This document shows, one piece after another, positions 25,859 through 27,544 of a DNA stretch of 64,000 bases. The notes beneath the pieces are model-generated. The model was not told where the DNA came from, ran no database searches, and saw nothing but the letters and a program-made list of their open reading frames with translations. Location of the stretch: the NCBI GenBank assembly GCA_037576195.1, contig CM075101.1, positions 53,568,001 to 53,632,000 of the forward strand, read 5' to 3'. Source of the DNA: Phytoseiulus persimilis (Eukaryota > Arthropoda > Arachnida > Mesostigmata > Phytoseiidae). The translations under genes and the position numbers were made by a program. How positions within the stretch are numbered: the first letter of the stretch is position 1; each line of letters starts with the position of its first letter.

Positions 25859-27544
25859 TTAGCTAGGCCCTTGTGCTTCCCTTGTGTGAAGCTTCCAGTC
25901 GATGATAACACGCACCTTGAGATTGAACTCGAGAGAAGAATATCCCTGAGTGAGTTGAGCCGTTGAGATGATATCGACTGCCGGCAGCGCAAAATCCTGG
26001 AAATTACTCCTGTTGAGCAAGAAGAGACTCGCCAGACTCCTTCCGGAATCCCTCGTTGAGTATATCTACCTTGATATTTTCGATGGTGAGATTGTAACCG
26101 GATGCCTCGATGATGAGCCTCGGGAACTCTTTTTTCAGATACGAAGTGGTTTCATTGAGTTCCTGGAAATGAATTCCTCCGTGTTATTTGAGAGCCTCGG
26201 CTCAATGGGCTCGGCTCGATCCATCGACACGCAAGACACTGCGGGACCGTTGAGACCAGTCTGGAAGTTCGCAGACCAGCAGATTCTGAAGATAAAGTGG
26301 ACGATATCGTCGAGATCATTAGGAAAATTGTCCCGATCTCCCGGTCTGACTGACCTTGGCGATGAAATCTTGAAGCATAACGATGTCTGCACCCGCGTTG
26401 GCTGCGTTGATGGCGTCTTCGAGGCTCAGACATTCTACCTCCACTTTTTTTGTGAAACCACCAACTCTACGTGCGATGGTGACCGCCTGAAATCAACGAC
26501 ATCTTTCCTGATGGAACACAGCGACGATTCCTCTAATCGCAGCTGACGATCGAGGATGACCATTATCTCCTTGACAACCCGATGTACGTCGGGTGCGAAA
26601 CTGTTGGTCACCTTTTTCACATTTCCAGCTGTTCTTATGTGATTTGCGTTAAGCATCACCATCGAGGCTAGGTCGTTCCTGTTGAGAGTTTTTCGAGAGA
26701 TTCTGTAATATCCATCTGTGCTCCTGGATTGTCCGACTCGCTCCAGCTCTCTATGATGGGAACTCACCGATGGGTGTCAGCACCCCCTATAACGAGGGAG
26801 TACTTCTCTATCAAGCGGAAACCAGGAGTTGTTCGTCGAGTTCCAGCCAAAATTCCTCTCCAGTTGAGCTTTAAGAGAACTCTTTAGTGAGAGAGATGGG
26901 CCATTGAGTGACGTGGGCAATGTTCGCGAATAGTCACATCGAAATCACCAATGTTAGTTGTTCGCGAAGTCCCCGAGTTCTCGTGGCAACTCCGCTTGCC
27001 CGAGCCAGAGTATTCAGAACAGTTCTTTCAGCCAATAGGACCCGTCTTGCCGGTCCGCAAATCTCGGCAACTTTCACAGTCGGATGGAGCCATTCACCTT
27101 GAGAATCAGAAGGAGAAAGAACACTGGGTTCGGTCCACCACGACATCAGAGTAGAAGAATCATCCTAGATTCCTCACCGCCAGAAACAACGCCAGGAATC
27201 CGTGAATCCTTCGACCGTATCTGGACGACTCAAGGAACTAACCTTCATTTCGAAGCCATGTGATGTTGAGATTGAGCTCCCTAGCGACTACATTGGCAAA
27301 TGGAACTCCAGCGAGAACACCTGAGGGATGGACGCTCGCGATAAGGAAAAAGCCGGCCTCAAGGAGCTCGGAAGATCGGATTCGTTGAGTGGTTCCACTC
27401 ACCTTCAGAATTCCCCCAAAGGTGAGCAGTGATCGCGGCGTCACCCACGACCGCTGCGGACGCATCGAGGCCAAGGTGATCTTCGGAAATCCATGAACGC
27501 GCCATAATTTCCAATTGGATCACATTCAAAAGAAACTCTGCCAT
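25859..27544 (-). CDS. QPRT: Quinolinate phosphoribosyltransferase homologue with altered active site
   Basis: The family makes nicotinate mononucleotide from quinolinate and PRPP, the entry step of de novo NAD synthesis, usually in the cytosol. Nine exons (27544-27403, 27320-27243, 27097-26949, 26868-26768, 26678-26612, 26486-26355, 26162-26070, 25996-25916, 25891-25859) join in phase to 291 residues; human QPRT is 297. Similarity is colinear end to end: an N-terminal block with [12 protein letters not shown], then [46 protein letters not shown] and a C-terminal FNLKL. Several catalytic positions differ: GTRKT is GTRRT, KDNH is NANH, LLDN is MLQD, and the SGG phosphate loop is SGYN with one extra residue. 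The ER, HR and EVEC residues remain. It may be a diverged enzyme or a non-catalytic paralogue. A 192-residue antisense open frame overlaps it and is treated as spurious. Confidence 0.9.

Follow-up and report, generated by a model that had tools for sequence, protein, structure and literature searches.

The only QPRT-like gene found in the arachnid Phytoseiulus persimilis has a changed donor site: a candidate pseudoenzyme

The only gene for quinolinate phosphoribosyltransferase (QPRT) that we found in the genome assembly of the arachnid Phytoseiulus persimilis encodes a full-length member of the family in which key residues of the active site are replaced, above all those that bind the phosphate and ribose of the product in other QPRTs. 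On balance, we lean towards reading the predicted protein as a pseudoenzyme that descends from an animal-type QPRT and retains its fold, possibly with a quinolinate-binding pocket. The QPRT reaction is among the strongly conserved steps by which NAD is made, and a lineage whose only copy has a changed donor site would offer a natural test of what happens when an essential pathway is abandoned: does the protein gain a non-catalytic role, and are the residues held to be indispensable truly so? It is also a trap for annotation. Since the predicted protein passes the nadC equivalog cut-off, a homology pipeline would credit the animal with de novo NAD synthesis. In the following, we describe the gene, its substitutions and its metabolic context, and weigh the readings that they allow.

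Results

Gene structure and surroundings

The gene lies on the minus strand at 27544..25859 of the analyzed window, that is, of a stretch of 64,000 nucleotides (assembly GCA_037576195.1, contig CM075101.1, positions 53,568,001 to 53,632,000); a first-pass annotation, made from the letters alone, had placed a QPRT homologue at the same location. It is composed of eight exons and seven introns of 73-192 bp, all with GT-AG boundaries, and its unbroken coding sequence of 900 nt, including the stop codon, yields a predicted protein of 299 residues (Table 1). The first-pass annotation had described nine intact, in-frame exons and 291 residues. The exons are indeed intact and in frame, and their number and the protein length differ because the last exon is read without an intron to the stop at 25859. 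No repeats of at least 25 bases are listed between positions 24500 and 29000 of the window.

Table 1. Exons of the QPRT-like gene and its altered active-site positions (coordinates refer to the window, residue numbers to human QPRT)
Feature	Position	Strand	Remarks
Exon 1	27403..27544	-	ATG at 27544; donor GTGAGT; ungapped against human QPRT from the FLL/LLL segment on
Exon 2	27243..27320	-	GVLAGVPF...; donor GTTAGT
Exon 3	26949..27097	-	R102 equivalent kept; donor GTGATT; matched by the human QPRT query with 52% identity
Exon 4	26768..26868	-	GTRRT and ADTHR; R138, H160 and R161 equivalents kept; PF01729 E 3.3e-6
Exon 5	26612..26678	-	NANH where KDNH is expected
Exon 6	26355..26486	-	VEVE kept; MLQDF for LLDNF; PF01729 E 1.6e-4
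Exon 7	26070..26162	-	EASGYN for EASGG, one residue longer
Exon 8	25859..25996	-	stop TAA ending at 25859
K139R	26833..26835	-	codon CGA; Lys in 44/44 relatives
K171N	26648..26650	-	codon AAC; Lys in 44/44 relatives
D172A	26645..26647	-	codon GCA; Asp in 40/44 relatives
D222Q	26370..26372	-	codon CAA; Asp in 43/43 relatives with a residue there
N223D	26367..26369	-	codon GAT; Asn in 43/43 relatives with a residue there
Tyr-Asn at Gly250	26091..26096	-	phosphate loop altered and one residue longer
G270A	25958..25960	-	codon GCT; weak evidence, Ser in yeast

An antisense open frame of 192 residues (25968-26546, plus strand) spans all of exons 6 and 7, together with the intervening introns and a portion of exon 8; it has no Pfam match, and we set it aside as a likely chance shadow. 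The remainder of the window holds an ordinary USP8-like gene, a frame of 772 residues (39028-41343, plus strand) with USP8 dimerization, rhodanese-like and ubiquitin hydrolase domains, as well as open frames that match the lipase maturation factor LMF1 (49644-50498, minus strand) and the C-terminal domain of acyl-CoA dehydrogenases (54087-54656, plus strand). A weak match to Chitin_bind_4 (E 1.1e-4), a cuticle-protein domain typical of arthropods, lies at 43051-43188 on the minus strand (genome C1:53611051-53611188), and the genome as a whole has 112 matches to this domain, which supports the arthropod origin stated in the first-pass annotation.

Family membership

Against human QPRT, the predicted protein aligns from end to end, as the first-pass annotation had stated for the family, with an identity of 47% in one alignment and 44.6% (128 of 287 aligned positions) in another. 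It is approximately as close to the human enzyme as is yeast QPRT (Bna6), which shares 45.5% of its residues with human QPRT. The final model matches the Pfam domain QRPTase_C with 151.8 bits over the whole domain length and QRPTase_N with 58.8 bits, and its score of 257.1 bits lies above the NCBIfam nadC equivalog cut-off of 198.4 bits. Both QRPTase domains, the nadC score and the whole-length alignment thus place the protein in the QPRT family by descent. The alternative identity ModD was rejected: the NCBIfam modD score of 62 bits is below its cut-off of 178.85, compared with 257 for nadC. For an early draft of the protein, which still contained some intron letters, human and pig QPRT were the best matches among solved structures (E 8.5e-54), ahead of the yeast and bacterial ones, a ranking which suggests that the gene was passed down vertically among animals. 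The query sequences used for human QPRT and human ACMSD are identical to the deposited chains. At the N-terminus, the available part of one study reports that the human hexamer needs the hydrophobic residues Leu8, Leu9 and Pro11 (PMC4726147); these face Phe, Leu and Asn in one of our alignments, while another places Ala at Pro11.

A single copy in the assembly

The assembly that we searched comprises 181 Mb in 127 contigs. Neither PF01729, nor a 207-residue part of human QPRT, nor the gene's own DNA revealed a second QPRT in it, so that the search for a canonical copy, which the first-pass annotation had proposed, returned only the altered locus. The human query was sensitive enough to pick up three of the altered gene's exons (30-40 bits each); had a canonical copy with exons of comparable size been assembled, it should have come up as well. 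We also rejected an artefact of exon boundaries, as the altered residues lie inside exons and a scan of the 64 kb window in all six frames gave no match to GTRKT-, KDNH-, LLDNF-, EASGG- or ISMG-like motifs, although motifs interrupted by an intron would escape such a scan. The possibility that other boundaries restore the canonical motifs had been raised in the first-pass annotation against its own reading; no unsplit alternative exon in the window does so. Among viral contigs, 60 pattern matches were obtained, none of them a relative.

Substitutions at the active site

For comparison, 45 prokaryotic relatives were fetched and 44 used, one (L054) being left out because it has no open frame of 150 residues. 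Most of these relatives are archaeal. As two sequence motifs served to find them, conservation within human positions 143-150 and 194-201 is inflated; the four key positions Lys139, Lys171, Asp222 and Asn223 lie outside both motifs. One row has a gap at Asp222/Asn223, hence the count of 43 at these positions in Table 1. Human and yeast QPRT share the four key residues with the prokaryotic relatives, whereas the predicted protein has Arg, Asn, Gln and Asp in their place. On the motif level, GTRKT has become GTRRT, KDNH has become NANH, LLDN has become MLQD, and SGG has become SGYN with one additional residue. Every substitution named in the first-pass annotation is therefore present, although its list omitted N223D and G270A as well as two further changes, S282N and Y162N. 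We do not regard G270A as decisive, since yeast QPRT has Ser at this position. By contrast with these changes, the equivalents of Arg102, Arg138, His160, Arg161, His174, Glu201, Gly249 and Gln274 are identical to human QPRT.

The roles of these positions are known from studied family members. In the complex of pig QPRT with NAMN, as described in the available text of the report, the phosphate is bound by Lys139, Asn223, Gly249, Gly250, Gly270 and Gln274, the ribose hydroxyls by Glu201 and Asp222, and the carboxylate by Arg138, His160, Arg161 and Lys171 (PMC3633916). Lys139, Lys171 and Asp222 are thus among the contacts, in line with the earlier statement that the lysine and aspartate positions touch PRPP or quinolinate. 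In the Mycobacterium enzyme, activity became undetectable when Arg105, Arg139, Arg162, Lys172 or His175 was mutated to Ala, according to the portion of the study available to us; for Lys172Ala, at the position of human Lys171, this holds at more than 24 times the usual concentration (PMC4065032).

Measured against EC 2.4.2.19, the predicted protein lacks the PRPP phosphate and ribose contacts Lys139, Asp222 and Asn223, and retains all quinolinate contacts (Arg102, Arg138, His160, Arg161, His174) except Lys171. In the glycine loops, Gly249 is kept, Gly250 is replaced with an insertion, at a position where only 32 relatives have Gly, and Gly270 is Ala. Across a list of 14 contact residues, which Arg102 and His174 entered from the bacterial mutants through our own position matching, five of the eight phosphate and ribose contacts are altered, compared with one of the six carboxylate and base contacts.

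Constraint outside the active site

At 40 positions where at least 95% of the relatives agree with one another and with human QPRT, the predicted protein keeps 34 residues and yeast QPRT 37. Within the 37 positions also shared with yeast, the predicted protein is changed at 4 of 11 ligand contacts and at one of the remaining 26 positions (Fisher test, one-sided p 0.021). This enrichment is a post hoc one, as it was the altered active site that had drawn attention to the gene; so few non-contact changes at the contact rate have a binomial probability of 1.2e-4. The search motifs contain the contact Glu201 and five of the 26 non-contact positions, and without these the one-sided p, calculated by hand, is approximately 0.027. 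When gaps are ignored, each of the 44 relatives matches at all, or all but one, of the 11 contacts, whereas at the 26 non-contact positions a relative differs at as many as 9.

Neutral decay was simulated in 1000 runs by mutating the present coding sequence, with substitutions only and no indels, until four contacts had changed. On average, this produced 4.2 stop codons and changes at 8.4 of the 26 other invariant positions. The fraction of runs without a stop was 0.042, that with at most one other change 0.016, and that with both 0.001 (1 of 1000). With simulated stops and other changes so far above those observed, pure neutral decay is a poor fit to the predicted coding sequence. The intact frame and the simulation also led us to set aside a decayed pseudogene as less likely, and so lend weight to the earlier argument that intact exons speak against one; a recent relaxation of the gene stays as a rival and is discussed below.

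The GC content at third codon positions (GC3) is 0.497, the same as that of the gene's introns. Elsewhere in the genome, it is 0.785 in ACMSD, 0.728 in NAPRT, 0.635 in the HAAO pieces, 0.632 in a part of TDO, 0.591 in the USP8-like gene and 0.575 in a part of kynureninase. Weak expression or a loosening of constraint could account for the low GC3 of the QPRT-like gene.

NAD metabolism in the same genome

The pathway leading to quinolinate has not been lost as a whole, as HAAO, TDO, ACMSD and pieces of kynureninase are all present. HAAO is represented by three stretches in the assembly, two of them over the cut-off, and is intact in the parts seen; its translated exons include the expected metal-site region. 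Kynureninase likewise appears in three stretches, which score below the cut-off set for the whole protein, as single exons would, and one of which matches the kynureninase family alone. A TDO gene was found, too. ACMSD has 55-56% identity to the human protein over about 330 residues; it is encoded in a single open frame (L056, C3:4937644-4938636), in contrast to HAAO and the QPRT-like gene, both of which are divided among short exons. NAPRT has an open frame of 555 residues that scores above the NCBIfam cut-off (484.7 versus 297.4 bits), and nicotinamidase-, NAD-synthase- and nucleotidyltransferase-family matches, assigned on the family level only, are present in the assembly. With TDO, HAAO, ACMSD, NAPRT, the kynureninase pieces and the nicotinamidase- and NAD-synthase-family matches in place, this gene inventory suggests that NAD could come from salvage and that ACMS could be drained via ACMSD.

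Discussion

The first-pass annotation had left three options: an enzyme with a rebuilt site, an enzyme with a new substrate, or a pseudoenzyme. We favour the last, by which the sole QPRT gene found would be a pseudoenzyme derived from an animal-type QPRT, its donor site lost and its fold and most of its quinolinate pocket retained; we hold this to be slightly more likely than not, on a comparison of one species with prokaryotic, human and yeast sequences. Productive PRPP binding and NAMN synthesis would have been lost, while NAD would be made from nicotinate and nicotinamide through NAPRT. ACMS from HAAO would exit through ACMSD, so that QPRT activity might no longer be needed: with ACMS taken on by ACMSD and NAD supplied by salvage, it could have become dispensable. 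From its conservation we infer that the protein may have a non-catalytic function, and that selection for it would have kept the fold. The simplest such role would be to bind quinolinate or to serve as a scaffold, perhaps as an oligomer of the QPRT type. Against a pseudoenzyme stand the passing of the nadC cut-off, the HAAO gene, which is intact in the parts seen and would suit a working QPRT just as well, and the low GC3, which could mean weak expression or relaxed constraint.

Such a working QPRT would need a rebuilt site, in which Arg139 stands in for Lys139, the acid is shifted by one position in MLQDF (Gln-Asp for Asp-Asn) and the extended loop binds the phosphate differently. We regard this as unlikely, yet it has arguments on its side: this is the only copy found, the genome has HAAO, TDO and pieces of kynureninase for preceding steps of the pathway, the listed carboxylate and base contacts are kept save Lys171, as are Glu201, Gly249 and Gln274, the equivalog cut-off is still passed, and Ser270 of yeast indicates that some changes in the loops are tolerated. 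They are opposed by the invariance of Lys171 and Asp222 across the sampled relatives, by the bacterial Lys172Ala mutant, which had no detectable activity in the available part of that study (PMC4065032), and by the genes for ACMSD and NAPRT, given which the activity could be dispensable. Marginally less probable is a recently relaxed gene, in which de novo NAD synthesis is unneeded and the catalytic residues go first, with the frame still unbroken. A GC3 equal to that of the introns and below that of six other genes or gene parts would fit such a history, as would the genes for NAD salvage and for the removal of ACMS; eight intact exons without a stop and the retention of 25 of 26 non-contact invariant positions, a pattern that neutral decay produced in only 1 of 1000 runs, do not.

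The QPRT fold might also have been turned to a new chemistry or ligand, for instance to a PRPP-independent decarboxylation of quinolinate that yields nicotinate for NAPRT. The imbalance between acceptor-site residues (five of six kept) and donor-site residues (five of eight changed) would agree with this, and the genome carries a NAPRT gene, which could make use of the nicotinate. However, Lys171, an acid contact in QPRT, would be missing from such an enzyme, and loss of the donor site alone fits a plain pseudoenzyme equally well, which is why we consider a new chemistry or ligand very improbable. A broader version, a PRPP-independent quinolinate handler that acts either as a sensor or as a decarboxylase supplying nicotinate to NAPRT, appears improbable to us as well, if a trace less so. 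If true, it would join tryptophan breakdown to NAD salvage without the QPRT reaction.

The pseudoenzyme that we favour would share with its class, on which reviews exist (PMC5106787, PMC10211241), the retention of a fold and the loss of conserved catalytic motifs. Many pseudoenzymes coexist with an active paralogue; unlike these, the QPRT-like gene has no second copy that we could find in the assembly. Among the literature matches listed, which cover few subscription journals, we found no report of a QPRT pseudoenzyme.

Compared with other arthropods, the presence of the gene is less surprising than its state. The first-pass annotation had thought its retention noteworthy, as many insects lack QPRT. 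This agrees with Drosophila, which has neither HAAO nor QPRT according to the available part of one report (PMC11019140), but it is only part of the picture: for the spider mite Tetranychus urticae, the accessible portion of another lists HAAO, QPRT (tetur27g01660) and NAPRT (PMC10630510). As here, the T. urticae QPRT is accompanied by a kynurenine pathway that includes HAAO, and by NAPRT; it carries a table value of 42, apparently from a column of percent identity to human, and is treated there as an ordinary orthologue (PMC10630510). Since T. urticae is reported with HAAO and QPRT, the retention of QPRT in an arthropod is itself not unusual; what is unusual is that the sole copy found lacks key residues.

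Among the enzymes of known structure, yeast QPRT (PDB 3C2R, 3C2E) has 41.9% identity to the predicted protein and an MVML segment in common with it. It also does without Gly at position 270, having Ser where the predicted protein has Ala, but unlike the latter it retains Lys, Lys, Asp and Asn at the four key positions. The human and pig enzymes (EC 2.4.2.19; PDB 4KWV, 2JBM, 4I9A) resemble the predicted protein in their end-to-end alignment, in both domains and in Arg102, Arg138, His160, Arg161, Glu201, Gly249 and Gln274, and differ from it by K139R, K171N, D172A, D222Q, N223D, G270A and the longer, altered SGG loop.
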